Assembly: GCA_030950395.1 (NCBI GenBank)
Contig: JAUZRP010000053.1
Coordinates: 1 to 50,889, forward strand
Length of the DNA: 50,889 nucleotides
Source: Desulfonauticus sp.
GTDB lineage: Bacteria; Desulfobacterota; Desulfovibrionia; Desulfovibrionales; Desulfonatronovibrionaceae
Direction: 5' to 3'
Part shown: piece after piece, positions 541 through 32,215 of the stretch
How positions within the stretch are numbered: position 1 is the stretch's first letter
Layout of the letters: each line of letters opens with the position of its first letter
The notes under the pieces: model-generated
The model's input: the letters and a program-made list of their open reading frames with translations, nothing else
What the model was told of the DNA's origin: nothing
Database searches by the model: none
Position numbers and translations under genes: made by a program

Positions 541-1185
541 ATGAAAAAATTGTTTATGGCAGGTATTCTTGGAGCAATCTTAGTGTTTGGGGCAAATCTT
601 GTTTTTAGTAAAAACCAGTCAGGTCAAAACGTACAAAACTATGTGCTTAGTTTACCTAAACAGCCTTTATCTCAACAAGAAATTAGAGATTTGATGCACA
701 TGAGAGAAGAAGAAAAGTTAGCTAGAGATGTTTATTTAACTCTTTACCAAAAATGGGGTTTTAGAATTTTTAATAACATTTCCCAAAGTGAAACCTGGCA
801 CATGCAAATGGTAAAATTTCTAATTGATAAATATGGTCTTAACGATCCAGTAAAAAACGACCAAGTAGGAGTATTTACCAGCTCTCAAATGGCAAAGCTG
901 TATAAAGAACTGGTAAAAAGAGGCCTTTCTAACAAAATAGAAGCTCTAAAAGTGGGGGCATTAATTGAAGATTTAGATATATATGATCTAGATGAGGCCA
1001 TAAAAAAAAGTGACAATACAGATATAAACTTTGTCTATTCCAGACTCAGAACAGGCAGTACAAATCACATGCGAGCCTTTATAGGCTGGCTTACAACCTA
1101 TGGCGTAACTTACAAACCACAGTACATATCGCAAGAAGAGTTTAACATTATAATCCAGCAAAAAAGAGGTGGCAAAAGGTGGTAA
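541..1185 (+). CDS. Exported DUF2202 ferritin-like protein
   Basis: A 214-residue protein of the DUF2202 family, which has a ferritin-like four-helix fold. Residues 1-23 form a signal peptide or N-terminal anchor, so the protein should act outside the cytoplasm. Likely metal-ligand motifs are EEEKLARDVY (about 56-65), SETWHM (83-88), EDLDIYDLDE (143-152) and a TNHM segment near 174. The spacing is as expected for a di-iron or similar centre, although binding is not proven. I chose the ATG at 541 because AAGGAG lies just upstream and a signal peptide follows; an in-frame extension back to 460 has no such support. The gene overlaps the next one by 7 bases, so they are probably translated together. 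What it does for the ABC system is unknown; it may handle metal or oxidative stress. Confidence 0.85.
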   Translation: MKKLFMAGILGAILVFGANLVFSKNQSGQNVQNYVLSLPKQPLSQQEIRDLMHMREEEKLARDVYLTLYQKWGFRIFNNISQSETWHMQMVKFLIDKYGLNDPVKNDQVGVFTSSQMAKLYKELVKRGLSNKIEALKVGALIEDLDIYDLDEAIKKSDNTDINFVYSRLRTGSTNHMRAFIGWLTTYGVTYKPQYISQEEFNIIIQQKRGGKRW

Positions 1186-1844
1186 TATTAAAAAATGTTT
1201 ATAAAAGTTATAAAACAGGTGAAGTGGTAACAGAAGTCATTAAAGGCCTTAACCTAGAAATCAAACAGGGAGAGTTTGTGGCCATTATAGGACCCAGTGG
1301 GAGTGGAAAATCTACCATCTTAAATATGATAGGGGGGCTGGACACCCCAAGCAAAGGAGATATCTTTGTCGATAACCAGGACATTGCCAAACTCAGTGAT
1401 GCTGAACTGAGTAAGTTTAGAGCTAAAAAACTCGGATTTATCTTCCAGGATTTTAACCTCATTCCTGTTTTTACCGTAAGAGAAAACATCAAATTTGTGT
1501 TGGACGTTATTAAACATTCTAACGAAGATATAGAGCACCTCCTCCAAGAAATAGGCATACTTGAGCATATCGACAAATTCCCCGATCAACTTAGTGGTGG
1601 CCAAAAACAAAGAGTGGCAGTGGCAAGAGCCTTGGTCGGCAAACCCAAATTAATCCTAGCTGACGAACCCACTGCTAATTTAGATAGTAAATCCGCGCAA
1701 AAAGTTATAGAAATTATGAAAAAAATGCAAAAAGAGTTTAATACGACCTTCATCTTTTCTACTCACGACACAAGACTTACCAGTGAAGTGAGTAGAATAT
1801 TGGAACTTGAGGACGGAAAAATAGTGAGGGATATAAAAAAATGA
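1179..1844 (+). CDS. ABC transporter ATP-binding protein, LolD/MacB type
   Basis: A 221-residue ATPase of the LolD/MacB/FtsE class, which powers mechanotransmission-type ABC systems at the inner membrane. It shows Walker A GPSGSGKST (38-46), the Q-loop in FIFQDFNL, the signature LSGGQ (138-142), Walker B LILADE (158-163) followed by PTANLD, and the H-loop histidine near 196. The start is GTG, overlapping the end of the DUF2202 gene by 7 bases. The stop overlaps the permease start as ATGA. The neighbouring FtsX-type permease, LolA-like carrier and beta-barrel suggest movement of a lipoprotein, lipid or hydrophobic compound across the envelope, not metabolite import. It is probably not the housekeeping LolD, because no LolC/E pair is seen nearby. 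Confidence 0.93.
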   Translation: MVILKNVYKSYKTGEVVTEVIKGLNLEIKQGEFVAIIGPSGSGKSTILNMIGGLDTPSKGDIFVDNQDIAKLSDAELSKFRAKKLGFIFQDFNLIPVFTVRENIKFVLDVIKHSNEDIEHLLQEIGILEHIDKFPDQLSGGQKQRVAVARALVGKPKLILADEPTANLDSKSAQKVIEIMKKMQKEFNTTFIFSTHDTRLTSEVSRILELEDGKIVRDIKK

Positions 1845-3052
1845 AATCATTTAAAATAGCTTACAGAAATCTTTTGAGGATGAAAAGAAGAACGTTCCTT
1901 ACTGCTTCTTTAATAGCAGTAGGAGTAGTTTTTGTTTTATTATTTGTATCCTTTAGTGGAAGTTTTAAAAACTATATGATCTCCCAAATTACAGACAGTA
2001 TGTTGGGACATATTCAAATCCACAAAAAAGGTTACGTTTCTAGTCTAGACAGTTTACCTCTTGATAAAAACCTAAAAGCTAAAATTGTAAAAAAGATAAC
2101 AGAAAAATTACAGTCTATGCCTGAAGTGGTGAGTTTTTCTAAAAGGCTTAAATTTGGAGCTATGATTAGCAATTTTACCACCTCCACCAATGTGCGACTA
2201 AACGGGATTTATCCAAAACAAGAAATGAAGACCCTCCCTCTTTTAAAAAACAGAATAAAAGGGAGAGTTGACCTCAAACCAGGAGAAATTATCATCCCTG
2301 AACTGATCGCCAAAGGTATGAAGCTAAAAATTGGAGATACTGTGGTCTTAGTGGCCACCAATGCCAAAGGTTCTATGAATGCCAAAACTCTAAAAATAGC
2401 AGGTATTGTAGGCATACTTTCAGGACCTGGAGGAAAAGACGGTTATATCCACATCCAAGATGCAAGGGAGCTCTTGCGAGCAGACAAGGGAGAGATAAAC
2501 GAAATTATAATCAGAACCAAAAATATTAGTCAGGTAGATGCAACAACTCTAAAACTAAAAAAATGGATTAAAACCATTGCCAAACCAAAACTAGAAGTGC
2601 ATAGTTGGAAAAAATTAACTCCTTTTATCAACATTGCCAAAATGATCGATCTAATGTCCATATCCATTCAAATTGTACTTATTTCTCTTGTTTTGATCTC
2701 CATTTTAAATGTAATGATCATGAGTGTTTACGAACGCATAAAAGAAATCGGCACTCTAAAAGCCATTGGAACTCCCAAAAGTTTTATTGTCTCTATGTTC
2801 GTCAACGAAGGAATTTTGCTGGCTATTTTAGGAGCTATCATAGGCACAGCTTTAACCTTTGTACTTATTTTGTTGGTAGGAGACGTTAGATTTTCTTTTG
2901 GAAGACAAGATAACCTGCTTCTTACACCACAAATTACTGTCTATGACGTAATGTTTGTCTGGATATTGGTGATCTGTATTTCTATTGTAGCCTCTATTTA
3001 TCCCAGCATAAAAGCAGCTAATTTAAAACCAGTAGAAGCTTTAAGGAGTTAA
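1841..3052 (+). CDS. ABC transporter permease, FtsX/MacB/LolC type
   Basis: A 403-residue inner-membrane permease. One transmembrane helix lies near residues 18-38 and is followed by a large periplasmic domain (about 45-270). A block of three helices then falls near 275-300, 325-352 and 372-392. This is the four-helix MacB_PCD plus FtsX layout. The stretch MSVYERIKEIGTLKAIG is the conserved cytoplasmic coupling segment of the family, and the C-terminal PSIKAANLKPVEALRS is typical. The gene overlaps the ATPase by 4 bases and is followed after 4 bases by the LolA-like gene. Its substrate cannot be read from the sequence. The absence of a MacA-like adaptor gene argues against a MacAB efflux pump and for a lipoprotein or lipid role. 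Confidence 0.92.
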   Translation: MKSFKIAYRNLLRMKRRTFLTASLIAVGVVFVLLFVSFSGSFKNYMISQITDSMLGHIQIHKKGYVSSLDSLPLDKNLKAKIVKKITEKLQSMPEVVSFSKRLKFGAMISNFTTSTNVRLNGIYPKQEMKTLPLLKNRIKGRVDLKPGEIIIPELIAKGMKLKIGDTVVLVATNAKGSMNAKTLKIAGIVGILSGPGGKDGYIHIQDARELLRADKGEINEIIIRTKNISQVDATTLKLKKWIKTIAKPKLEVHSWKKLTPFINIAKMIDLMSISIQIVLISLVLISILNVMIMSVYERIKEIGTLKAIGTPKSFIVSMFVNEGILLAILGAIIGTALTFVLILLVGDVRFSFGRQDNLLLTPQITVYDVMFVWILVICISIVASIYPSIKAANLKPVEALRS

Positions 3053-3056
3053 AATT

Positions 3057-3776
3057 ATGAAAAAAATATTTTGTATCCCGTTAACTATTTTTATCTTTTA
3101 CTCGCTTGCCTTTGCTAAAGATGATATTTTGAGCAAAATAGATAGAAGATTAAATCCAGAGAGTTTTGAAAGTTATAGAAAGCTTATAAACATAGAACCA
3201 GATGGGACCAAAAAAGAATTTATCTTATACACAATAAAAAAAGGTAAAGACAAAGTAGCTTCTTTGTTTCTTTCTCCCAAAAGTGATCAAGGAAGATCTA
3301 CTCTTCGGCTTGGAGAAAATATGTGGCTTTACATCCCTGGCATCGCCAAACCTCTTAGAATTGCCTCTATGCAAAGCGTAACTGGTGGTGTATTTAACAA
3401 TAGTGACATTATGAGAGTAGATTTTTCTGTAGAATATACAGTTGTCTCTCAAAAAAAAGAAGAAAACTACTTAATTTTAGACTTAAAAGCCAAAAATGAC
3501 AGTGTAGCCTATGAAAAGCTAATAATGAAAGTAAAAAACGACCTACCAGTACAAATACAATGTTATGCGGGTGGGATATTGATTAAAACAATAACCTACT
3601 CTAAAATAAAAGATTTTGGCAATGGAATTGTTCGTCCTGCAATTATGGAAACTACTTCCCCCCTGCAAAAAGGATATAAAAGCGTTATTGTGTTTGCCAG
3701 ACTAAAGCCAAGAAAACTAAAAGATAGTTATTTTACCCTTGATTTTCTGCCCAAACTAGAAGATATTAGAAAGTAA
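3057..3776 (+). CDS. Periplasmic LolA-like protein (outer membrane lipoprotein-sorting family)
   Basis: A 239-residue protein with a signal peptide (about 1-20, ending near LAFAKD). The rest looks like the LolA_like family (Pfam PF17131): a half-open beta-barrel fold carrying hydrophobic cargo. Supporting stretches are FLSPKSDQGRSTLRLGEN, the MWLYIPGIAKPLRIA block and the region ending at TSPLQKGYKSVIVF. It is expected to act in the periplasm, taking cargo from the adjacent ABC permease and passing it to the outer membrane. The start is the ATG 4 bases after the permease stop. It is not the housekeeping LolA: such paralogs usually accompany RND or ABC exporters. The assignment to family is good; the cargo is unknown. 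Confidence 0.82.
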   Translation: MKKIFCIPLTIFIFYSLAFAKDDILSKIDRRLNPESFESYRKLINIEPDGTKKEFILYTIKKGKDKVASLFLSPKSDQGRSTLRLGENMWLYIPGIAKPLRIASMQSVTGGVFNNSDIMRVDFSVEYTVVSQKKEENYLILDLKAKNDSVAYEKLIMKVKNDLPVQIQCYAGGILIKTITYSKIKDFGNGIVRPAIMETTSPLQKGYKSVIVFARLKPRKLKDSYFTLDFLPKLEDIRK

Positions 3777-3830
3777 CCAAAATATCCTCTGTAAAAATTT
3801 TCTTTATGGAAATATAAAAATCAGTAAAAG

Positions 3831-4865
3831 ATGAAAAAAATAATTTTATTTTTAAGTTTTTTAATCTTAATCCAAACTGAATTTGCTTTTGCTCAAAATC
3901 AAGATTACGATTTTAATCTAGATGAATTTGAGAAAAAAAGCTTTGACTGCAGAGGCTACCTTAGTCTTAATCCAAAAATAACTGTAGATAATAAAGAACA
4001 ACGGCTTTATAGCGCTATAAACGAATTGCAAATAGAACCAAGTTATAAAAAAGATTGGATCAATTTAAAAGCCAATTTTTCCTTTTTTGCTATGCTTTAT
4101 TCAAAAGAAGATAATGATTATAAATTTATTATCAACAATTTATATCAAACTTTTGGAGAAGACTTTAGTCTTTCCCTGGGCAAACAATCCTTAAAATGGG
4201 GCAAAGGATATATCTACAATCCTATAGCATTTCTGGATAGAGTAAAAAATCCTTTAGATCCTGAAAGTGTGCGAGAAGGATATTATCTGCTCAAATTACA
4301 GTACATTCAAACGCCTGAGGGAGATATTTTGCAAAATCATTCTTTTACTTTTGTTTATATGCCAAGTAGTTATGATCTTAATAAGGATTTTTACACAAAA
4401 GAGCACTCTTACAATAATGTTGCTTTTAAATATTATGCTCTAATCTTGGATACAGATATAGACCTAATTTACATGCAGGAGGAAAAAGTCAATAAGTATG
4501 GAATTGATCTTTCCAAAAATCTATCAGAAGAGCTCGAAGTACACGGGGAACTTAGTTATTTTAATGAACAAAATGAATATTTAATTGGGTTCAAATATGC
4601 AGCTCCATATGATCTTACCCTCACCACTGAATATTACAAAAAACAAGGAGACAACTTTATCTATAATAAACTCTCCCAAAAAGACGCTTTTGGCATCATT
4701 TATTCTACTGCTTATGTTAGCTATCAAAAAAATTTGGATCAAAATAAATATCAGGTTATTTTTAGCTTTAAGTACGATTTTAAAAATGGATTTGTAGTAG
4801 AATCTATAGCCACTAAAAGTAGTCAGGACAAAAGCCTGGGACTAAAAACTACTTATTATTTTTAG
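3831..4865 (+). CDS. Outer-membrane beta-barrel protein, DUF1302/porin-like
   Basis: A 344-residue protein with a signal peptide (cleavage near AFA-QNQD, about residue 21), alternating hydrophobic strands rich in Tyr and Phe, and a C-terminal phenylalanine (TTYYF), the usual signal for barrel assembly. The segment LGKQSLKWGKGYIYNP (116-131) followed by NPLDPESVREG resembles the conserved entry of DUF1302-type outer-membrane proteins. That family is known to travel with LolA-like DUF1329 proteins and RND exporters. Here it closes an operon with an ABC transporter and a LolA-like carrier, so it may be the outer-membrane end of the same route. No strong ribosome binding site precedes the ATG; the gap to the previous gene is 54 bases. 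Family assignment is tentative. Confidence 0.72.
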   Translation: MKKIILFLSFLILIQTEFAFAQNQDYDFNLDEFEKKSFDCRGYLSLNPKITVDNKEQRLYSAINELQIEPSYKKDWINLKANFSFFAMLYSKEDNDYKFIINNLYQTFGEDFSLSLGKQSLKWGKGYIYNPIAFLDRVKNPLDPESVREGYYLLKLQYIQTPEGDILQNHSFTFVYMPSSYDLNKDFYTKEHSYNNVAFKYYALILDTDIDLIYMQEEKVNKYGIDLSKNLSEELEVHGELSYFNEQNEYLIGFKYAAPYDLTLTTEYYKKQGDNFIYNKLSQKDAFGIIYSTAYVSYQKNLDQNKYQVIFSFKYDFKNGFVVESIATKSSQDKSLGLKTTYYF

Positions 4866-4898: not shown

Positions 4899-6272
4899 CT
4901 AAAATTCCATACTTCCTAAACAACGATAAAAACTTAACACGTCTCTCACATTACTTACACCAGTAAGATACATCATCAATCTGTCAAAACCAAGGCCAAA
5001 GCCGGAATGCACTACTGTGCCAAAACGACGCAAATCCAAATACCACCAATAATCTTTTTTATCTAACCCACATTCTTCCATTCTTTTTTCTAAAATTTCC
5101 AGCCTCTCTTCTCTTTGACTGCCTCCAATCAGCTCTCCCACTCCAGGCACCAGAAGGTCCATAGCAGCAACGGTCTTTTGGTCGTCATTTAATCGCATGT
5201 AAAAGGCTTTAATTTCTTTGGGATAATTATAGACAAACACTGGTTTTTGAAAGTGCGCTTCTGTTAGATAGCGTTCGTGCTCAGTTTGCAGATCTCGTCC
5301 ATACTCCACAGGATATTCAAATTTTCTCCCAGATTTTTTTAAAACTTCAAGAGCCTCTTGATAACTAATTTTGGCAAAAGGTTCTTTTAAGGTAAGTTCC
5401 AGGCGTTGGGTTAAATTTTTATCTACAAACCTGACAAAAAGAGACAAGTCTTCTGCACAGTGCTCCAAAACGTAATTCACCAGCCATTTAACCATTTCTT
5501 CAGCCAATTCCATTACGTCATTTAGATCTGCAAAGGCTATTTCTGGCTCCACCATCCAAAATTCTGCAGCATGTCTTGGAGTATCGGATTTTTCAGCCCT
5601 AAAGGTGGGACCAAAAGTATAAACACTTCCCAGGGCACAGGCCATAATCTCTGCTTCCAATTGGCCTGAGACAGTTAGATAGGCTCTTTTTTTAAAAAAA
5701 TCTTTGGAAAAGTCTATTCTTCCCTGGATATTGGAAAGATCCAAGGCAGTGACCGTAAAAGTTTCTCCTGCACCTTCACAATCTGAACCTGTAAGAATGG
5801 GGGTATGGATATAACAAAATCCTTTTTGATGAAAAAATTTGTGAATGCCAAAGGCTAATTCTGAACGAATCCTAGTAATAGCCCCATATTTATTAGTTCT
5901 TGGTCTAAGATGGGCAATGGTTCGCAAAAATTCATCACTATGCCGTTTTTTTTGTAAAGGATACTTATCAGCAGGAGCATCCCCTAAAATCTCCAGTTTT
6001 TCTACCTGAAGCTCCCATTTCTGCTTTTTGCCAGGAGAGGCAACAACATCGCCAAAAATCGCCACAGACGCTCCTGTGGTAAGTCTTGAAAGTTCTTGCC
6101 TGGAAACTTTATCCCAGGATAACACGGCCTGAACATTGCTCAAACAAGAGCCATCATTTATCTCTAAAAAAGAAAACCCCTTGGAATCTCTTCTGGTCCT
6201 AATCCAACCTTTAATAATGACGTCTTTTTTAGGCTCATCTAGCAAAAGCAACTCTTTGACCATCAAACGCAT
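4899..6272 (-). CDS. asnS: Asparagine--tRNA ligase
   Basis: A 457-residue class II aminoacyl-tRNA synthetase that charges tRNA-Asn in the cytoplasm. An N-terminal OB-fold anticodon-binding domain (about 18-95, GWIRTRRDSKGFSFLEIND) precedes the catalytic core. Motif 2 is FRAEKSDTPRH (224-234) and motif 3 is GFGLGFDR (about 424-431). The Asn enzyme, not the Asp one, is indicated by the overall pattern and length: no GAD insertion is present. The ATG at 6272 is supported by GGAGG six bases upstream. The gene converges with the beta-barrel gene, with only 33 bases between stop codons. No clear terminator is visible between them. Confidence 0.96.
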   Translation of the reverse strand: MRLMVKELLLLDEPKKDVIIKGWIRTRRDSKGFSFLEINDGSCLSNVQAVLSWDKVSRQELSRLTTGASVAIFGDVVASPGKKQKWELQVEKLEILGDAPADKYPLQKKRHSDEFLRTIAHLRPRTNKYGAITRIRSELAFGIHKFFHQKGFCYIHTPILTGSDCEGAGETFTVTALDLSNIQGRIDFSKDFFKKRAYLTVSGQLEAEIMACALGSVYTFGPTFRAEKSDTPRHAAEFWMVEPEIAFADLNDVMELAEEMVKWLVNYVLEHCAEDLSLFVRFVDKNLTQRLELTLKEPFAKISYQEALEVLKKSGRKFEYPVEYGRDLQTEHERYLTEAHFQKPVFVYNYPKEIKAFYMRLNDDQKTVAAMDLLVPGVGELIGGSQREERLEILEKRMEECGLDKKDYWWYLDLRRFGTVVHSGFGLGFDRLMMYLTGVSNVRDVLSFYRCLGSMEF

Positions 6273-22586: not shown

Positions 22587-23915
22587 TTAATGAAAAACAA
22601 CTTTAGGAAGCCAGGTAATTATCTGAGGGAAAATAAAGCAAAGTATTAATCCCACAATCTGAAGCAAGACAAAGGGTATTATACCTTTATAAATATGTCC
22701 CATGGTCATCCCTTCTGGAGCAACTCCTTTTAGGTAAAAAAGCGCATAACCAAAAGGTGGGGTCAAAAAGGACATTTGCAAATTTACACAAACTATCATG
22801 GCAAACCAAAGGGGATCAAAGTGTAATTGATTTACGGCGATAGGAGTAAAAATAGGCACGCACAAAAGAAGTATCCCCAGCCAATCCACAAACATACCCA
22901 AAAGGAAAATAATGAGCATCATTATCCCCAAAATTACCCATTTGTTGGAACTTATTTTAAATAGAAGTTCTGTAAAAACATCACCCCCACCAAGTCCCAT
23001 AAACACAGAAGTATAAAAATTAGCTCCTACAAAAATCAACATCACCATACAGGTTATTTTTAAGGTGGCATAGCCTGCCTCTTTGAGCATGCTCAAATTT
23101 AAGCGTTTGTTAAATAGAGCTAAAATCAAAGCACCAACACAGCCCAAACCAGCGGCCTCAGTAGGAGTGGCGACACCAGCAGCTATGCTCCCTAACACGG
23201 CTAAAATAAGAAACAATGGCGGGAACATGGATTTTAGGACCATTAATAATTTTTGATTGAGAGAATATTTTTTAGCTTCTTCTTTGGGAATAGGAGGACC
23301 TGCCTCTGGATTGATAAAGGTGCAATAAATCCACGTATAGATGAGATATAAAACAGATAAAATCAAACCGGGTATTATGGCCGCCAAAAACAATTTTCCA
23401 ACAGACATTCCAATTAAACCACCATATACCACGAGCATTATAGAAGGAGGTATAAGGATACCCAAAGTACCTCCTGCAGTAATTACCCCTGCTGTGAGTT
23501 CTTTTTGATAACCTTTTTTTAGCATAGACGGAGCAGCCAAAAGACCCATTGCCACTACAGAGGCACCAATAATTCCTGTGGTAGCTGCAAACACAGTACA
23601 CACTACTATTGTTGCCAAAGCCAATCCCCCTCTAATAGGTCCCAAAACAATGTACATACTCTCATAAAGTTCTTCGGCAATGCCTGATTTGTCCAAAAAT
23701 TGAGCCATAAGAATAAATAAAGGTATGGCCACCAACACATAATTAGTCATCAGACCATAGGTTTTATTAGCCAAAATAAAAAGAGCACCAGGACCATATC
23801 CCAATATTCCAAATATAACGCCCAATCCACCTAAAGTTATGCCAAGAGGATGGCCTAAAAACACAGCCAAAAGCAAAACTACAAACATGGCTATAGAAAG
23901 AAATTCAGGGCTCAT
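22587..23915 (-). CDS. dctM: TRAP transporter large permease (DctM)
   Basis: A 442-residue inner-membrane protein of the DctM family with about 11-12 hydrophobic segments. Typical landmarks are VAIPLFILMAQFLDKSGIAEELY near 60-82 (key part PLFILMAQ), GGTLGILIPPSIMLVVYG, and GVATPTEAAGLG. It forms the ion-coupled permease of a tripartite ATP-independent periplasmic transporter, with the small subunit encoded just upstream (ATGA overlap). The position downstream of a lactate oxidation operon suggests a 2-hydroxyacid or 2-oxoacid substrate; this is an inference. Confidence 0.95.
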   Translation of the reverse strand: MSPEFLSIAMFVVLLLAVFLGHPLGITLGGLGVIFGILGYGPGALFILANKTYGLMTNYVLVAIPLFILMAQFLDKSGIAEELYESMYIVLGPIRGGLALATIVVCTVFAATTGIIGASVVAMGLLAAPSMLKKGYQKELTAGVITAGGTLGILIPPSIMLVVYGGLIGMSVGKLFLAAIIPGLILSVLYLIYTWIYCTFINPEAGPPIPKEEAKKYSLNQKLLMVLKSMFPPLFLILAVLGSIAAGVATPTEAAGLGCVGALILALFNKRLNLSMLKEAGYATLKITCMVMLIFVGANFYTSVFMGLGGGDVFTELLFKISSNKWVILGIMMLIIFLLGMFVDWLGILLLCVPIFTPIAVNQLHFDPLWFAMIVCVNLQMSFLTPPFGYALFYLKGVAPEGMTMGHIYKGIIPFVLLQIVGLILCFIFPQIITWLPKVVFH

Positions 23916-24418
23916 TCTATCTCCCTTCCTTTTATTTTTTGATAATAAGATTTTATTAATTCAGAAATACCTTGCAAAAACAACAAAACAAAGGCAATTG
24001 GCATAAAAGCTTTAAAAGGATAAATAGGTGGTCCCCAGGGGGATTGACTATGCTCAAGTCCCTGCCAAGATTGAAGGGCAAAAATAAAACTAGACTTTAT
24101 AGCCACAAGAGTAAAAGGAAGAAAAAAAACTATAAAGGTAATAATATCCAATATCCCCTGGGTTTTGGGACTAAGGTTAGAATACAGCACGTCTATACCA
24201 ATATGCATTTTATGTTTTAACGTGTAACCAAATCCCAACAAAAACATCACCGCATAAACCATATAACTAAATTCAAATCCCCACATGGTAGGACTATCAA
24301 ACACTTTTCTCATTATGACTTCAAATACTACCACAAATAACAGCACAAACGCGAGAATACTGGTTATCCTACCCACTATTTCATTTAATCTGTCTATAAA
24401 TTTGACTATTTTTAGCAT
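23912..24418 (-). CDS. dctQ: TRAP transporter small permease (DctQ)
   Basis: A 168-residue membrane protein with four transmembrane helices (about 17-37, 52-70, 88-110 and 130-150), the DctQ pattern. The segment RKVFDSPTMWGFEFSYMVY and the HIGIDVLYSNLSPK block are typical. AGGAG lies upstream of the ATG. The stop overlaps the dctM start. A hairpin lies in the 152-base gap between it and the binding-protein gene, possibly lowering expression of both permease subunits relative to the binding protein. Confidence 0.93.
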   Translation of the reverse strand: MLKIVKFIDRLNEIVGRITSILAFVLLFVVVFEVIMRKVFDSPTMWGFEFSYMVYAVMFLLGFGYTLKHKMHIGIDVLYSNLSPKTQGILDIITFIVFFLPFTLVAIKSSFIFALQSWQGLEHSQSPWGPPIYPFKAFMPIAFVLLFLQGISELIKSYYQKIKGREIE

Positions 24419-24524
24419 TGCTTTCTCCTAAAAAATTACCTCCAAAAAATTTTGGAAGATAACAAAAATTATCCCCACCCCACACTATGTTGTAAAATTA
24501 AACAATATTTCAATTTACTAAAAA

Positions 24525-24558
24525 ATTATGCAGCCAGGTGATAACCTGACTGCATAAT
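24525..24558 (-). terminator. Hairpin between dctP and dctQM, partial terminator
   Basis: Arms ATTATGCAG and CTGCATAAT, then after one mismatch CAGGT and ACCTG, form a stem of about 15 pairs with a GATA loop, 12 bases past the dctP stop. On the minus strand it is followed by a T-rich run (TTTTTAG). It could be a leaky terminator or a processing site that keeps the binding protein more abundant than the permease. Confidence 0.6.
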
Positions 24559-24570
24559 GTAATTTTGATC

Positions 24571-25653
24571 TTACTCGTAATGTTTCCCTTTGATATATTC
24601 TTCATAAGGATAAGCAGAAACTCCACTTCTTAAATCTTTCCACTGAGCATATTCTTTAATAAATTGCTCTTGCGAAGCTAAGACTTTATCCAAAAAGGGA
24701 TTTTCTTTTCTTAACTTATCCAAATATTTTTTGGTAACTTTTCTAAGCTCATTCAAAGACTTATCTGAAAGTTTATTAAATTTTACCCCATCTTTTTTAT
24801 ATTTTTCTATGGCCTTGGCATTATTAAACTCACTTCTGGCAATATCCCACAACTGGGTTTCTCTAGAGGCAATTTCAAGCACTTTTTTCAAATGATCAGG
24901 TAACTCATCATAGGCTTTTTTATTGACCTCAAACATCAATTGAACTGCTGTCTGATGCCAACCTGGCACCATAACGTTTTTGGCAATATCCTGAAATCCC
25001 ATAGGATAAGTAATAAAAGGTGTGGAAAACTCAGCAGAATCAAGTACTCCTCTCTCAAAAGCAAGATATATTTCTCCACCAGGCAAAGGAGTCACAGATA
25101 CCCCCATATCTTTTAAGATGTCAGCAGCCCAACCCACTGTCCTAACTTTCATACCTTTTAACTGGGAGACCTCAGTAATAGGTTTTTTGGTAAAAAAACC
25201 CATTTCCTGACCTGAATTCCCACCCATCAAAGGCACTAAACCATATTTACCGTAAAGTTCTCTAGCCAACTTCATTCCGCCACCATCCATAAGCCAAATA
25301 GTATATTCCACATTGTTCAAGCCAAAAGGAACAGAACCAAACGCAACAAAAGCCTGATTTTTACCTTTCCAATACCCTGGCCAATCGTGTCCCATTTCCA
25401 CTACGCCGTTTCTCACTGCATCAAAAACCTGAAAGGCTGGAACAATAGCTCCTGCAGGATAAACCTTAATCTTTAACTGACCTTGAGAGAGCTCATCCAC
25501 TACCTTGACAAAATGTAAAACAGTCTCGTGCCAAGGTATCCCTGTGGGCCAAGTAGTTACCAGTTTCCAATAATACGTCTTGGCCTGAGCCTGAATGTTG
25601 AGACATAAACACAACAACACCACACTAACCAAAGAAACCAATTTTTTAAACAT
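24571..25653 (-). CDS. dctP: TRAP transporter substrate-binding protein (DctP family)
   Basis: A 360-residue periplasmic binding protein. Residues 1-24 are a signal peptide ending at AQAK. The mature part has the DctP fold, with KVRTVGWAADIL-type KMRTVG (KGMKVRTVGW) near 165-175, holding the arginine that binds the substrate carboxylate, and GGEIYLAFERGVLDSAEF, the conserved dimer/ligand region. The stretch VPFGLNNVEYTIWLMDGGG resembles the TakP-like group that binds 2-oxoacids or lactate. With the neighbouring lactate oxidation genes, lactate or a similar 2-hydroxyacid is a reasonable guess. An AGGAGG ribosome binding site precedes the ATG. Confidence 0.93.
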   Translation of the reverse strand: MFKKLVSLVSVVLLCLCLNIQAQAKTYYWKLVTTWPTGIPWHETVLHFVKVVDELSQGQLKIKVYPAGAIVPAFQVFDAVRNGVVEMGHDWPGYWKGKNQAFVAFGSVPFGLNNVEYTIWLMDGGGMKLARELYGKYGLVPLMGGNSGQEMGFFTKKPITEVSQLKGMKVRTVGWAADILKDMGVSVTPLPGGEIYLAFERGVLDSAEFSTPFITYPMGFQDIAKNVMVPGWHQTAVQLMFEVNKKAYDELPDHLKKVLEIASRETQLWDIARSEFNNAKAIEKYKKDGVKFNKLSDKSLNELRKVTKKYLDKLRKENPFLDKVLASQEQFIKEYAQWKDLRSGVSAYPYEEYIKGKHYE

Positions 25654-25809
25654 AATCTACCTCCTATATTTGATTTTTATTTCTTTTTTTACAAACCACT
25701 CTAAAACATCCTGGCATTTTTTAGACAAAAACATTTTTACAATATTTTCAAATAATTAACTAATTACAATCTGACAAACTAATTTCAATTTTTGCAATTA
25801 CATCTTTTA

Positions 25810-27897
25810 TCAACCCTCTAACATCTCTACCACGTGCTTTACCTCAAGAGTAAGGCCTTTTTTCTCAGCAAATCCTTTTAATTGTAAGATACATCCAGGA
25901 CAATCCGTAACAATCAATTTCTGTTTTTTAGCTAATATTTTATCGATCTTATCAGATACTATTTCTTTAGATATTTCTGGGAATTTAAAAGAATAACTTC
26001 CCCCAAAACCACAACAAACCTCTTCTGCGCCATAATTTACAATTTTGGCACCTTTTTTTTCTAATACTGCTAAAGCATCTAAATGACCCTTATCTAGTCC
26101 TCTACACAAATGACAGGGTGCATGGTAAGCTAAACTCTGGCTGTGTTCAGATGCTGACAATAATATATGGGCATGAATAAAAGTAGAAAAATAGATAAGT
26201 TTTTGGCAAAAATTTAGTTTTTTATTATTTAACAACAAAGGATAGTTATTTTTCATATGCGAAGCACAAGAGGCACATAGGGTAATAATATAGTCATATT
26301 TATTCCAATCAAAGGCATTGATATTGTGGACAGCCACCTCTCTGGCCACGTCTTCTTCTCCCATAATATAGGCAGGCAGACCACAACATCCTTGCTCAAG
26401 TGGAAAATCAACTTCAATATCATGTCTAGACAAAAAATCTACTGCATTTTGAAGATGTTTTGGATAAACAAAATCCTGAAGACAACCAGCAAACAAAGCA
26501 ATTTTTAATTTTGGAGATTTTACTCGTCTTTTTATAAACACATCTCTAAAAGGTTTCTCTGCCAAAGCTGGAATTTTTCTAAATTCATTTGGATTTATTA
26601 AAGCTAAAGGAAGATGTCTGATATAATCAGAATCTTCTTTTACAGGCTTTTGCAAATATATCGCTGTTTTTAACAAAAAATGAAACAACTTTCTATTTTT
26701 TAAAATATTAACAAATTTACTGGTTATATTTTTATTCTCTTTTTTAGAACGCAATTTTAAAATTAACTTGGGAAGATCAATGTTGGCTATGCAGATATCC
26801 TTACAAGCATAACAATTTAGACAATTTTGAATCAAATCTTTCAGATACGGAACCTCATGATAAAAATATGTAAGAATAAGCCCAATAGCTCCTATATAAA
26901 CATGTCCATAAGCATGTCCGCCTATGGTTTTGTAAATAGGACAGACATTGGCACAACCACCGCACCGCACACATCTTAATACCTCTTTAAATATGGAATC
27001 TTTAGATAGATTTAATCTGCCGTTATCTAAAAAAATTATGTGAAGCTGTTTTTGTTTGTTTGCTGCGGATAAACACTCCACAGAGCCACTAATCCAAGAA
27101 ACATAAGAAGAAATAACTTGGGCTGTGGCATTTTTGGTCAGACCTTTTAAAATAGTCAAAGCATCTTCCAAAGAAAAGAGCAATTTATCTAACCCCACCA
27201 AAACCACGTGTATAGGGGGCAAGGTAGTCACTGCTCTAGCATTACCTTCATTTTCTATGATACCAATACTTCCAGTTTCTGCCAAAGCAAAGTTTGCTCC
27301 AGTTATGCCCATCTGAGCAGTTATAAGTTTTTGCCGTAATTTTACCCTGGCCAATTTGACCATTTCATCAATAGAATCAGGTTTTATTGGCACGTTAAAT
27401 TCTTTTGAAAAAAGGTCAGCCACTTGAGCTCGCGACAAATGAATAGCAGGCATGACCATATGAGAAGGCCCTTCTTGTCTCAACTGAATAATCCACTCTC
27501 CAAGATCTGTTTCCACTACATCAAAACCATAAGACCCTAAAAAATGATTCAAATCTATTTCTTCAGAGGTCATGGACTTAGATTTAACTATAAGTTTAAC
27601 TTTATTTTCTTTAGCGATATTCAAAATAATATTCTGTGCATCTTGGGCATCTTTAGCGAAATAAACTTTAGCACCTTTTTGCTCTGCACTTTTCTTAAAT
27701 TCAGCAAAAAGAGACTCTAAATTTTCTATGGCCAAGTCTTTTATCGCTGCAATCTGTTGTCTTAGCTCTGCCAAATTTATATCCTGAAAGGCTTTGTCTC
27801 TGGCTGGTTTGTATGAACTAACAAATTTATCCAGGACCTGTCTTTGAAAATTATTTTGCAGGCCTTTTTGAATTTTTGACTTGTAAATTTTATTCAC
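25810..27897 (-). CDS. LutB-LutA fusion: lactate oxidation iron-sulfur protein
   Basis: A 695-residue fusion. The N-terminal part (to about 300) is the LUD domain of LutB/LldF. Two [4Fe-4S] sites follow, CVRCGGCANVCP and CLNCYACKDIC. The C-terminal third is a LutA/GlcF-like cysteine-rich region with two CCG motifs (QGCCGLPA and EEVCCGFGG) and CASC/CPGC partners, binding a further unusual cluster. It should pass electrons from lactate oxidation. Sulfate reducers of the Desulfovibrio group carry the same fused form. I start it at the GTG at 27897, which overlaps the lutC stop by one base and has GGAG eight bases upstream; a longer frame runs 42 bases into lutC without support. It is the last gene of the operon. 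Confidence 0.92.
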   Translation of the reverse strand: MNKIYKSKIQKGLQNNFQRQVLDKFVSSYKPARDKAFQDINLAELRQQIAAIKDLAIENLESLFAEFKKSAEQKGAKVYFAKDAQDAQNIILNIAKENKVKLIVKSKSMTSEEIDLNHFLGSYGFDVVETDLGEWIIQLRQEGPSHMVMPAIHLSRAQVADLFSKEFNVPIKPDSIDEMVKLARVKLRQKLITAQMGITGANFALAETGSIGIIENEGNARAVTTLPPIHVVLVGLDKLLFSLEDALTILKGLTKNATAQVISSYVSWISGSVECLSAANKQKQLHIIFLDNGRLNLSKDSIFKEVLRCVRCGGCANVCPIYKTIGGHAYGHVYIGAIGLILTYFYHEVPYLKDLIQNCLNCYACKDICIANIDLPKLILKLRSKKENKNITSKFVNILKNRKLFHFLLKTAIYLQKPVKEDSDYIRHLPLALINPNEFRKIPALAEKPFRDVFIKRRVKSPKLKIALFAGCLQDFVYPKHLQNAVDFLSRHDIEVDFPLEQGCCGLPAYIMGEEDVAREVAVHNINAFDWNKYDYIITLCASCASHMKNNYPLLLNNKKLNFCQKLIYFSTFIHAHILLSASEHSQSLAYHAPCHLCRGLDKGHLDALAVLEKKGAKIVNYGAEEVCCGFGGSYSFKFPEISKEIVSDKIDKILAKKQKLIVTDCPGCILQLKGFAEKKGLTLEVKHVVEMLEG

Positions 27898-28472
27898 TAT
27901 GCTTGCTCCTGACTCAATAAAACAACGTGTACTTCCCAAGGCCCGTGTACACCCAAGGTAAGCACCCTTTCTATATCTGCAGTCCTGCTAGGGCCTGTAA
28001 TAAACGACACAAATCCACCACCTGAAAGATAGTTATTTAGATCTTGAGCACACTCTTCAAAATCCAAGACAATATCTTCGGGGTTTAAAAACACCACATT
28101 AATCTCAGAAAACATGGTCAAAATCCTAAGATCCTCTGAAAAGGATTTGACAATTAAGGTCCCAGTATTAGCTACTGCAAAATCCGCCCAAAACAAACCA
28201 AAATCAAGACCTCCAAGATACTGCCTAAAACTATTTTTAACGACCCAAAAATCATTATCTTGTTGTATTTTTTCTATGAGCTCCTCTGCTATGTTCCAGG
28301 TCCCAAGAATTTTCTTATCTAATTGTGGTTCTCTTTTATCTGGCACAATAGGCTTTTTTTCCTCTGGTTCAATGCTCTTTAGGTAGTCTATAACATCTGA
28401 TTCTTTTTCTAATTCTACCACAGTGGTAGAAGAGACCTTGGCCATTTGTTTAAATCTTTCTATGGGGTCCAC
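27897..28472 (-). CDS. lutC: LutC/LldG-type LUD domain protein
   Basis: A 191-residue protein with a single LUD domain. The C-terminal signature ADFAVANTGTL followed by FITGPSRTADIERVL and GVHGP is diagnostic for LutC (YkgG), the third component of the LutABC lactate oxidation complex. The N-terminus is a poorly conserved helical region. The start is GTG with GAGG about eight bases upstream, inside the previous gene (23-base overlap). The stop codon touches the GTG of the LutB-LutA fusion. The tight packing points to a single translationally coupled unit. Confidence 0.94.
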   Translation of the reverse strand: MDPIERFKQMAKVSSTTVVELEKESDVIDYLKSIEPEEKKPIVPDKREPQLDKKILGTWNIAEELIEKIQQDNDFWVVKNSFRQYLGGLDFGLFWADFAVANTGTLIVKSFSEDLRILTMFSEINVVFLNPEDIVLDFEECAQDLNNYLSGGGFVSFITGPSRTADIERVLTLGVHGPWEVHVVLLSQEQA

Positions 28473-29778
28473 AGCTTTTTTCCTCTTGCAAAATTTGAAT
28501 TGGATGTCTTACCATAATATCCACATTCCTGTGGCTCAACATATCAATTAATTGTAACATACACGCAGGACAGGACGTGGCTATTACTTTAGCCTCTGTT
28601 TTAATAATATTTTCTAGTTTTTTTAAACCTATCTCTTTTGATATTTCATAGTGTTTTAAGTTAAAACTACCGCCCATACCACAACAAGCATCACTATCTT
28701 GCATCTCAACCAATTCATATCTAGAATTTAATTTTATAATCTGTCTTGGCTCTTTATATATATTGAGGCTCTTTTTTAAATGGCAAGGGTCATGATAAGT
28801 TATTTTTATCTTTTGTTCTGAATTTATATGAGTTTTAAATTTCTTAGCTACATTGGTCTTTTGGATAAGAAACTCACTAATGTCCATCACTTTTGCAGAT
28901 ATGGATAAAATTTTTTCTTGTTGCTGCTCGTTAAACTCTTTTAAAAACATCGGCCATATTTTTTTTAGAGTAGAAGTACAACTAGCACATGGAGTTACGA
29001 TATAATCCAATTCGTCTACAGGGTATAAATTAATCAGTTGCGCCACCATTGATTTAAAACTCTGTAAATCTCCTGAAGATATAGCAGGTATACCACAACA
29101 AATCTGCGTATCTGGCACCAAGTATCCCATTTCTAACTCATCTAATATCTTTACAATGGACAAACCAATTTCTGGGAAAAATTTATCTACCAAACAACCA
29201 GCAAAAATACCTATCTTATTTTTCTCGCTAATACTTTGTTTTTGGGCCATCTGTTTATGAAAAGTATTTTTTTTGGGTGGGACAAAATGTCTATCTTTTA
29301 ACATCGTCAAAAAAGGTATCTTACAAGAAGCAGACCCTAAAGTAGGGTTTTGTTCTTGGACAAACAATTTTTGGGTCCTTGCAGCAATGTTAAAAATCGC
29401 CTCAAAAAGCCTGGGTTTGGCTACAATATCTCTTAAAATCAACCTCTCTACAAAAGAAAGTTTAAAAAATTTGGCAATAATTACCCTAGTTTTCAAAAAT
29501 ATTTTTACAACATCCACTCCACTAGGACAATTAGCAGCACACGAACCACACAAAAGGCACTTATTTACTATTTTGCTCACTTTTTCTGGGGAACTAATAA
29601 GTTCGTTTACCAGGTGAGATATAAGGACTAATTTACCCCTAGCTACATCTGGTTCCATAAAACTTGTTTTGTATAAAGGACATACGGCCTGACACATTCC
29701 ACATTTCATACATTTGATTAAATCATCATCCAATTGTTTTAAAAGACAAACCAACTCGATCAATTTCCTTTGCTTCAA
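28450..29778 (-). CDS. GlcF-like (Fe-S)-binding oxidoreductase subunit with CCG domains
   Basis: A 442-residue protein of the glycolate/lactate oxidase iron-sulfur subunit family. N-terminal [4Fe-4S] motifs are CMKCGMCQAVCP (about 23-34) and CLLCGSCAANCP. The C-terminal half has two cysteine-rich CCG domains (QICCGIPAI and DACCGMGGS) with CASC and CPAC. It should work with the FAD protein encoded just upstream, taking electrons towards quinone or HdrD-like carriers. The start is TTG, chosen because GGAG lies seven bases upstream and the frame leads into the first Cys cluster at normal distance. Homologous glcD-glcF pairs occur in the lactate region of Desulfovibrio. Confidence 0.92.
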   Translation of the reverse strand: MKQRKLIELVCLLKQLDDDLIKCMKCGMCQAVCPLYKTSFMEPDVARGKLVLISHLVNELISSPEKVSKIVNKCLLCGSCAANCPSGVDVVKIFLKTRVIIAKFFKLSFVERLILRDIVAKPRLFEAIFNIAARTQKLFVQEQNPTLGSASCKIPFLTMLKDRHFVPPKKNTFHKQMAQKQSISEKNKIGIFAGCLVDKFFPEIGLSIVKILDELEMGYLVPDTQICCGIPAISSGDLQSFKSMVAQLINLYPVDELDYIVTPCASCTSTLKKIWPMFLKEFNEQQQEKILSISAKVMDISEFLIQKTNVAKKFKTHINSEQKIKITYHDPCHLKKSLNIYKEPRQIIKLNSRYELVEMQDSDACCGMGGSFNLKHYEISKEIGLKKLENIIKTEAKVIATSCPACMLQLIDMLSHRNVDIMVRHPIQILQEEKSCGPHRKI

Positions 29779-29856
29779 CGTCCTTCTCCAAAATACTTTT
29801 TATTGGTCCAACTGCTATTTTTTAACTAAAAAAATCTTATCAGCTAAACTCCCTAA

Positions 29857-31245
29857 CTAAAATTGTCTAAAAACGAGTTTGCCCGGATTTAAAATGTTTT
29901 TTGGATCAACTGCTTTTTTTAATCTAGAGGAAAACACCAAAGTGCCTTTAGGAAATTCTTTTGGCATATATTTTAATTTGGCTATACCAATTCCATGTTC
30001 TCCTGAAATGGTACCTTCAAGAGTAAGACAGTTCTCAAAAAGCTCATCTATAGCCTGCTCCACCTTAATAAACTCTTCTTTATCCCTGATGTCTGTTAAG
30101 ATAGTAGGATGAAGATTGCCATCACCTACATGGCCAAAAATACCGAGTTGAAGAGAGTATTTTTGCTGAATATATTGAATAGCCTTTATCATTTCAGGTA
30201 TTTTGGATCTGGGCACAGTGACATCTTCCAAAATAGTAGATGGCCTAATTCTAGCCAAAGCAGGCAAAGCATCTCTTCTGGCCTGCCAAATGGCCTCTTT
30301 TTCCAAAGAATTCTTGGCGATTTTGATTAGCCTTGCCCCATTCTTCTTTAATATTTTCTCAATTTGGATGAACTCTTCTTCTACTTGCGACTTGTGTCCA
30401 TCTAGCTCTATCAAAAGCATAGCTTCCGCGTCTATGGGAAGGCCTGTTTTTCTAAACTGCTCTACACACCTAATAGTAAAATTATCCAAAAACTCTAAAG
30501 TACACGGAACAATTTTATGTCTAATAATATCAGAAACACTAAAAGATGCCTTTTCTATATCATCAAAAATCACCAACATAGACTTGGCAAAAGATGGCTT
30601 AGGAATAAGCTTTAAGGTGATTTCAGAGATAACCCCTAAAGTACCTTCAGAGCCCACCATAAAAGACGAAAGATTATACCCACTCACACATTTAACAGTT
30701 TTTGAGCCAGTTTTTACCAGTTCGCCAAAACTATCAAAAAAGGTCAGTCCCATGACATAATGCCCTGTAACGCCATACTTCAAACCTCTAAGTCCACCTG
30801 CATTCTCCGCCACATTTCCGCCCATGGTAGATACTTTTTGAGAACCTGGATCAGGAGGATAAAACAGGCCATACTTCTCAACTTCTTTAGCCAAATTAAA
30901 AGTGATCACTCCTGGCTCTACCCGGGCATAAAGATCGTCCAAATTGATCTCTAGAATTTTATTTAACCGGGTAGTGACGATAACAGCTCCCTTTTGCTTG
31001 GCAGGAATCGTGCCCCCGCTTAAGTTGGTACCAGAACCTCTCACGGTAATAGCATACCCCTCTTGGGATAAAACCCTAACCACCTTTCCTAATTCTTCCT
31101 GAGAGTTGGGGAAAACCACTACCTCGGGTATAACAGGCTCTAAACAAGTGGAGTCATAAGAATAAGTATGAAGAGTAGCTTCATCTGTAAAAACATCAGA
31201 ATATCTTAAAATGGCCTTTAACTTATTGACTAGCTTTATATCCAT
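29857..31245 (-). CDS. FAD-linked lactate/glycolate dehydrogenase (GlcD-like)
   Basis: A 462-residue flavoprotein of the GlcD/D-lactate dehydrogenase family (FAD_binding_4 plus FAD-oxidase C domains). The FAD-binding PP-loop region shows TVRGSGTNLSGG (about 61-72), and NVAENAGGLRGLKYG follows. The C-terminal domain has GHVGDGNLHPT and ISGEHGIG, typical active-site segments. It probably oxidises D-lactate (or glycolate/2-hydroxyacids) to the 2-oxoacid and hands electrons to the adjacent CCG protein. It is the first gene of the operon. The ATG at 31245 has a poor ribosome binding site and lies only about 22 bases after the predicted -10 box, so the mRNA leader is very short. Confidence 0.93.
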   Translation of the reverse strand: MDIKLVNKLKAILRYSDVFTDEATLHTYSYDSTCLEPVIPEVVVFPNSQEELGKVVRVLSQEGYAITVRGSGTNLSGGTIPAKQKGAVIVTTRLNKILEINLDDLYARVEPGVITFNLAKEVEKYGLFYPPDPGSQKVSTMGGNVAENAGGLRGLKYGVTGHYVMGLTFFDSFGELVKTGSKTVKCVSGYNLSSFMVGSEGTLGVISEITLKLIPKPSFAKSMLVIFDDIEKASFSVSDIIRHKIVPCTLEFLDNFTIRCVEQFRKTGLPIDAEAMLLIELDGHKSQVEEEFIQIEKILKKNGARLIKIAKNSLEKEAIWQARRDALPALARIRPSTILEDVTVPRSKIPEMIKAIQYIQQKYSLQLGIFGHVGDGNLHPTILTDIRDKEEFIKVEQAIDELFENCLTLEGTISGEHGIGIAKLKYMPKEFPKGTLVFSSRLKKAVDPKNILNPGKLVFRQF

Positions 31246-31266
31246 AGAATCTACACTCGTTTAAAA

Positions 31267-31294
31267 ATTATAAATTGGTCTATCCAATTACCAA
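31267..31294 (-). promoter_or_regulatory. Predicted promoter of the lactate oxidation operon
   Basis: On the minus strand TTGGTA (31294-31289, -35) is followed after 16 bases by a perfect TATAAT (31272-31267, -10). The start codon of the GlcD-like gene is 22 bases further on. A 17-bp palindromic operator fills the spacer. Confidence 0.6.
31273..31289. promoter_or_regulatory. PdhR/LldR-type (GntR-FadR family) operator
   Basis: The 17-base sequence AATTGGTCTATCCAATT fits the known PdhR/LldR consensus AATTGGTnnnACCAATT at all fixed positions but one. It lies exactly between the -35 and -10 boxes of the lactate operon, where a bound protein would block RNA polymerase. The gene next upstream codes for a FadR-type GntR regulator, the natural candidate to bind it. 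Confidence 0.7.
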
Positions 31295-31359
31295 CACAAC
31301 TTAAAGCTGTCAATAGGTATAAATAAAAAATAATTAATGGGCGAAAATTTACGGTAGAA

Positions 31360-31373
31360 GACAATTAATTGTC
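31360..31373. promoter_or_regulatory. Perfect 14-bp palindrome upstream of the lactate operon
   Basis: GACAATTAATTGTC is a perfect dyad 66 bases upstream of the predicted -35 box, in the 265-base gap between the regulator gene and the GlcD-like gene. It could be a second operator; it differs from the PdhR-type site. It may also be a chance AT-rich palindrome. Confidence 0.35.
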
Positions 31374-31510
31374 ATAAACAGTCAATAAAGATTAATAACA
31401 AACAAAAACTAGTTATTCAAAGTGAAGAAAAAATTGGTATGAAAATAGGATCAATTGCTAAGAGATGTGCTGGCAGGAGACTTTTTTTGCTAAAAGATCA
31501 TTTTATTGTT

Positions 31511-32215
31511 TTATAACTGCATTTTTTTACAAAACTCCATCACAAACAAAATATGTTCTTTCATTGCCTGAGCAGCTTCTTGAGGAGATCTGTTTTTTAT
31601 TCCTTCTAAAATAGACTTGTGTTGAGATGTAATCACAGGTAAATGAGCTGTCTCTTTAAGATAAAATCTATTTTCTTTAATTCCATAAAAAAGCAAATCG
31701 TAAAAGGCTTTCATAGTATAGACTTGAGCAGGATTTTGAGTGGCATAAGAAATGCTCATATGAAACGTTACATCTTCTTCTGAAGCCACTTTATCGTCTT
31801 CGTTTGCCAGCATCCTCTGATAGCTTTGTTCTAAAAGCTCTATGTCCTTTTTAGTGGCTCTTTTGGCAGCAATAGCGGCTGCATTAACCTCTAATCCCAA
31901 CCGCACCTCCAAAAGATCAGACAAGGAAACGTCTTCTGACAGTATTTGTCGCAAAGGATTTTCCATGTAGCCTTTTTTGGAAGATCGCACAAAAGTGCCT
32001 TGCCCCTGTCTTTGCTCTATAAGCCCCTGGCTGATTAATTTTTGCAAGGCGAGTTTTACAGTAGATCGACTCACTCCAAAACCCGTTGCCAGTTCTCGTT
32101 CTGGTGGAAGCTTGTCCCCTGGTTTTAAAATATTCCTAAAAATCATGTTTTTTAATTCTTCATAAACTTGATCGCTTATTCTCTTGGGTCTTATAGGTTG
32201 GATATTTATCTTCAT
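31511..32215 (-). CDS. GntR-family transcriptional regulator, FadR subfamily (LldR/PdhR-like)
   Basis: A 234-residue regulator. The N-terminal winged helix (about 10-75) has the GntR signature KPGDKLPPERELATGFGVSR followed by STVKLALQKL and GTFV. The C-terminal FCD helical domain (about 90-225) binds small carboxylates in this family, through metal-binding residues in the DVTFHMSI and H-rich segments (ITSQHKSI, KEHILF). It lies directly upstream of the lactate operon on the same strand, and a matching operator sits in that promoter, so it most likely represses the operon until lactate or a related acid is present. The ATG has GAGG upstream. Confidence 0.92.
   Translation of the reverse strand: MKINIQPIRPKRISDQVYEELKNMIFRNILKPGDKLPPERELATGFGVSRSTVKLALQKLISQGLIEQRQGQGTFVRSSKKGYMENPLRQILSEDVSLSDLLEVRLGLEVNAAAIAAKRATKKDIELLEQSYQRMLANEDDKVASEEDVTFHMSISYATQNPAQVYTMKAFYDLLFYGIKENRFYLKETAHLPVITSQHKSILEGIKNRSPQEAAQAMKEHILFVMEFCKKMQL

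Follow-up and report, generated by a model that had tools for sequence, protein, structure and literature searches.

A 50,889-nucleotide stretch of DNA from Desulfonauticus sp. (assembly GCA_030950395.1, contig JAUZRP010000053.1), here called the window, carries a set of four genes that is conserved as a unit: an ATP-binding cassette (ABC) ATPase, an FtsX/MacB-type permease, a LolA-like carrier of family PF17131 and an outer-membrane barrel. We refer to this set as the module. On balance it is probably a four-gene envelope-spanning exporter of a lipid or other hydrophobic compound, and an ATP-driven counterpart of resistance-nodulation-division (RND) systems such as AmeABCD.

Conservation and distribution of the four-gene core

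All five genes that an earlier, sequence-only reading had placed at this locus were confirmed on the plus strand, closely spaced or overlapping. A gene for an exported ferritin-like DUF2202 protein (541..1185) overlaps by 7 nt the ATPase gene (1179..1844, GTG start; ABC_tran, 3e-38), which in turn overlaps by 4 nt the gene for the 403-residue type VII permease (1841..3052; FtsX, 1.1e-15; MacB_PCD, 4.8e-15). The periplasmic carrier (3057..3776; PF17131, 5.9e-35, 121 bits against a gathering threshold of 30) follows after 4 nt and the barrel (3831..4865; no Pfam or NCBIfam match) after a further 54 nt. The barrel ends in ...TTYYF and so has the C-terminal Phe noted before.

The carrier family of the window is tight (53-59% identity) and patchily distributed in the order, with members in 18 of 247 genomes at E <1e-70, including the window's own. 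In each of the 19 other same-order copies examined, ATPase, permease, carrier and barrel are consecutive on a single strand. A scan of 84,980 species yielded 495 carrier relatives, and the best 80 of the 495 loci were examined. Among these 80, the ATPase and permease lie upstream of the carrier in 50 of the 51 loci with room for them, the barrel lies downstream in all 66 with room, and the full set is present in 40 of the 41 with enough sequence on both sides, an order far beyond chance. We recovered 76 distinct complete modules with the same order and strand. Their genes are separated by median gaps of 7, 83 and 1.5 nt, of which the 7 and the 83 are approximate because they were measured up to the start of the alignment match. 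Judged by record titles, the hosts include Desulfobacterota, Campylobacterota, Bdellovibrio, Beta- and Gammaproteobacteria, Stygiobacter and Elusimicrobia, and many are metagenome assemblies. The sequence-only reading had described a five-gene unit. The ABC genes, carrier and barrel stand as one conserved unit, with the barrel kept beside the ABC genes; the DUF2202 gene does not belong to it.

Two genomes hold two carrier-family copies, each with a permease and a barrel (G216:C1, at 873033 and 3869677; G131:C81 and C83). The sole testable locus with a divergent ATPase and permease (~30% identity) is L098:4377-10058, where the barrel is shortened at its N terminus and the engine is possibly decaying or replaced.

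The window copy groups with those of L094 (Bdellovibrio) and L102 (Campylobacterales) in both the ATPase and permease trees (support 100/99). In the permease tree it also groups with L126 and L136 (Sulfurospirillum, Campylobacteraceae), and in neither tree does it group with the copies of its own order. No copy of the module was found in the two same-genus genomes searched. Because the window groups outside its own order and these two genomes have no copy, the module was probably gained here by horizontal transfer.

Relationship of the module proteins to named systems

In trees rooted on FtsEX, the module ATPases (support 99/96) and the module permeases (95/86) each form a clade of their own, apart from the housekeeping LolCDE, MacB and FtsEX of their hosts; the positions of FtsX, MacB and C74 in the permease tree, all on long branches, are uncertain. 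This agrees with the sequence-only reading, which would have been refuted had either protein clustered with housekeeping LolCDE or FtsEX. The window ATPase scores best against the NCBIfam LolD family (235 bits, under the cut-off of 307.75), and the window permease reaches 130.6 bits against a LolCE cut-off of 362.45. Module permeases in general score at about 1e-27 to 1e-38 against the LolC/E family. A separate LolC/E gene was identified in all 13 genomes searched, 11 of which carry the module, and it exceeds the family cut-off in 12; in the window genome, a PF03548 LolA is encoded in addition to the module carrier. The module is therefore not the housekeeping Lol system.

The permease model (pLDDT, the predicted local distance difference test, 85) has a type VII ABC fold and aligns best to LolC and LolE structures (Z 26-30). 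The Hook hairpin (about residues 168-182 of Escherichia coli LolC), which together with the Pad recruits LolA to LolC (PMC9457489), is absent from all 24 module permeases and present in 13 of 14 housekeeping sequences. Since the unit has a single permease gene, the permease is probably a homodimer.

The carriers have a hydrophobic N terminus in all 76 modules and a lipobox in none; that of the window has a signal peptide, likewise without a lipobox. The carrier has a LolA fold, and its closest solved structure is 3buu (NE2245), on which our literature search found no paper. A profile-profile comparison linked the module carrier to carriers encoded beside DUF1302 genes of the same order (97.5%, E 8.9e-12).

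The barrels match no Pfam or NCBIfam family apart from chance matches and, in 4 of 45, weak hits to Porin_O_P, and DUF1302 (PF06980) gave no match in these 45 at E up to 0.5. Compared at the profile level by hhalign, they align with DUF1302 proteins of the order (98.8%, E 5.6e-17) over 342 columns reaching the C terminus. This points to a remote relationship with DUF1302 barrels, so that the earlier label "DUF1302-like" holds as distant homology and fails as a Pfam-level assignment. The alignment of the 45, which leaves out L094 owing to its uncertain start codon, revealed the family signature GKxxxKWGKGYAWNPVAFxxRPKDPxDPExxREGY with an almost invariant WGKGY core. A C-terminal Phe is present in 83 of 88 barrels. 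The AlphaFold2 model (pLDDT 90.5) has 18 strands, and its top-scoring structural matches were OprD/Occ porins (Z 22-24), followed by AlgE (Z 21-22). Among the matches listed none was Omp85, FadL/TodX or TolC, an observation that we do not use as proof.

DUF1302 genes adjoin PF17131 genes in several genomes of the order (for example G029:C7, G045:C7 and G040:C1). Judging from large neighbouring open reading frames and the AmeABCD precedent, these loci probably hold RND pumps. They resemble the module in having a carrier of the same superfamily and a related barrel side by side, and differ from it in the putative RND-type pump and in that their carrier and barrel are only remotely related to those of the module. 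A second ABC architecture, ordered carrier-permease-permease-ATPase-barrel, was found at L083:8086-13355, L087:7356-12605 and L088:2526-7773, with similar arrangements at L086 and L090. It combines a PF17131 carrier with a DUF1302-related barrel that bears a GRQAVTWG motif and is related to the module barrels, and its ATPase is sister to the module ATPase.

Our literature search, from which most subscription journals were missing, found no paper describing the exact four-gene set. The earlier statement that no described system has this set holds to that extent; close analogues exist. In Castellaniella defragrans, AmeABCD comprises the HAE3-type RND pump AmeD, the DUF1302 protein AmeA, the DUF1329 LolA-fold protein AmeB and AmeC, and its deletion reduces monoterpene tolerance and dye efflux (PMC6394551). 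Like the module, it joins a barrel of a related family and a LolA-fold carrier to an inner-membrane exporter, for which a full route for hydrophobic compounds has been proposed; unlike the module, with its ABC pair and PF17131 carrier, it uses an RND pump, a DUF1329 carrier and the extra periplasmic AmeC. In Borrelia, the BBJ23-29 cluster, for which export of a non-polar ligand has been proposed, combines an Omp85 barrel with a LolA-like protein and a MacB-like ABC transporter (PMC13078400). This is an analogue by gene content, with a homodimeric MacB-like transporter, a LolA-like protein and an outer-membrane barrel. The Borrelia barrel is of Omp85 type, a family not among the matches listed for the module barrel; two tetratricopeptide repeat proteins are added there, and the locus is plasmid-borne in spirochaetes. 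LolCDE with LolA or LolF shares the type VII ABC ATPase and permease and the LolA-fold carrier, whereas the module has no Hook, a single permease, clades of its own and a dedicated barrel rather than LolB, and coexists with the Lol system of its host. MacAB-TolC also has a type VII transporter with an FtsX/MacB_PCD permease; in the module, however, ATPase and permease are separate genes, the barrel is OprD/AlgE-like, and the unit includes no MacA membrane-fusion protein or TolC.

The DUF2202 gene and the surroundings of the module

The 214-residue DUF2202 protein of the window (PF09968, 1.6e-57, 194 bits against a gathering threshold of 22) belongs to the same family as MJ0754 (PDB 3q4n/3q4o, 8e-65); our literature search found no paper on DUF2202. 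The gene is absent from all 19 other same-order modules, and among the 80 further loci only three have it near the module: directly after the barrel in L094, after the barrel in L165 and about 3.4 kb upstream in L166. It adjoins the module only in the window and in the Bdellovibrio relative L094. Of 345 genomes in the phylum, 4 contain both, against about 3.6 expected, indicating no association at the genome level, and the short loci surrounding 19 other DUF2202 genes contained no module genes. Within about 537 kb of module flank, however, the gene occurs three times, more often than the 0.013 expected from its density; this expectation is rough, because the density was taken from one phylum, and at a tenfold density P is still 3e-4. 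The DUF2202 gene is an occasional accessory outside the conserved machine, and the notion of a metal protein attached to the unit, for which conservation beside the ABC genes had been set as the touchstone, is contradicted. The gene may belong to a regulon for metal or oxidative stress at the same locus.

Metal, arsenic, sulfur and redox genes are scattered around the modules. Genes for an extracytoplasmic function (ECF) sigma factor, a zf-HC2 anti-sigma factor and a Metal_resist/CpxP-like protein lie, in that order, directly upstream of the ATPase in L071, L073, L075, L077 and L079, mostly from genus g22, and this set resembles a CnrYXH-type sensor set. Cation_efflux, ArsP, ArsB and rhodanese genes occur near several copies. 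These neighbours suggest stress control of the module in some lineages. At L094:9757-11633, in a metagenome-assembled genome of Bdellovibrio, the module is followed by a DUF2202 gene with a lipobox-like LASC sequence, a Metal_resist-like gene and an ECF sigma factor gene.

The window is one whole contig (G000:C122), whose end truncates the sequence upstream of position 541. A plasmid collection gave no match to the locus. The next genes downstream of the barrel are convergent with it and encode a class II tRNA synthetase, of asparaginyl type judging by its sequence, and a PriA-type helicase. In three relatives (G001:C8, G002:C29, G005:C39) the orthologue of the synthetase gene (window 4899-6272) lies less than 300 bp from a contig end. 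That end corresponds to the module's side in the window and may hold a repeat, for instance an rRNA operon. Elsewhere in the window, translations suggest a lactate-utilisation-like locus at 22587-32215, where tripartite ATP-independent periplasmic transporter genes are followed by iron-sulfur, LUD-type and FAD-oxidase reading frames and a GntR-type regulator. A single reading frame at 40082-42436 appears, from its translation, to join an N-terminal PHP-type domain to a C-terminal glycosyltransferase.

Proposed function and alternative explanations

In the route that we propose, the permease, as a probable homodimer, and the ATPase would form a mechanotransmission ABC machine of Lol/MacB type that passes a molecule to the dedicated PF17131 carrier. 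The carrier would cross the periplasm and dock on the DUF1302-like 18-strand barrel, by way of which the molecule would enter or traverse the outer membrane. A Hook-less Lol-like ABC transporter would in this way stand in for the RND pump of systems that combine RND, LolA-fold and DUF1302 proteins. The sequence-only reading had proposed that an ABC engine replaces the RND pump, a fair view given that the carrier and barrel are related to the pair at the RND loci and that the engine falls outside LolCDE and FtsEX. We infer the export direction from the type VII ABC class; the hydrophobic substrate, and the reading of the proteins as extractor, shuttle and exit with carrier-barrel docking, are drawn by analogy with AmeABCD, Borrelia BBJ23-29 and the Pseudomonas putida DUF1302-DUF1329 pair, which is predicted to form a complex and is needed for growth on Tween20 (PMC10866462). 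More tentatively, the module may represent an unnamed, widespread transporter class, in which a Hook-less ABC transporter with its own carrier and a porin-type exit takes a lipid or a hydrophobic toxicant, not lipoproteins, to the surface, under ECF-sigma or metal-stress control in several lineages.

Several points weigh against an exporter of this kind. Neither neighbour clustering nor Pfam counts revealed a biosynthetic gene that regularly accompanies the module and could identify its cargo. With the LolA-recruiting Hook of LolCDE missing, the hand-over from permease to carrier must rely on a different contact, or may not take place in the way proposed. The Tween20 requirement of the P. putida pair also leaves the direction of transport ambiguous for that relative (PMC10866462).

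The module could instead be a second, specialised Lol pathway that delivers some lipoproteins to the cell surface or the outer membrane, with the barrel as acceptor or flippase replacing LolB. The likeness of the permease model to LolC and LolE, the best ATPase match to LolD and the LolA fold of the carrier all fit such a pathway, as do the similar role proposed for Borrelia BBJ23-29 (PMC13078400) and the lipobox-like sequence of the DUF2202 protein adjoining the module in L094. We nevertheless consider it unlikely: the Hook is absent from all 24 module permeases compared, both engine proteins fall outside the LolCDE clades and below the NCBIfam Lol cut-offs, no lipobox was found in the DUF2202 proteins of the window or L166, the unit includes no conserved lipoprotein gene, and the RND cousins of the carrier and barrel handle small hydrophobic compounds (PMC6394551).

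A role in metal or metalloid tolerance, with export of a metal complex, a metallophore or a metal-damaged lipid, would make DUF2202, Metal_resist and ECF sigma factors natural partners, and it draws on the regulatory set upstream of the ATPase (mostly in one genus), the L094 arrangement, the metal and arsenic genes near several copies and the enrichment of DUF2202 in module flanks. Most module copies, however, have no such neighbours, no metal binding in its own right is known for any of the four core families, and CpxP/Spy/Metal_resist proteins with an ECF sigma factor may report general envelope stress, which makes this role quite improbable. Finally, the type VII fold is common to FtsEX and BceAB, and the ABC pair might transport nothing and only send force or a signal to the periplasm, in which case the carrier and barrel would be structural factors of the envelope. 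We regard this as very improbable, given that a LolA-fold carrier and a pore-type barrel, neither of which belongs to FtsEX or BceAB, are constant partners in 40 of the 41 loci that could be tested and that the permease clade is distinct from FtsX.

It is still poorly understood how lipids and other hydrophobic compounds pass across the periplasm, and only a few routes have been described in full. An exporter as proposed here would have its engine, shuttle and exit encoded side by side in many genomes, making the whole path accessible as one unit to deletion, purification and reconstitution. Taken together, these data suggest that LolA-fold carriers and DUF1302-like barrels are an exchangeable back end that can serve either an RND or an ABC engine, and that such a carrier can also be loaded by means other than the LolC Hook.

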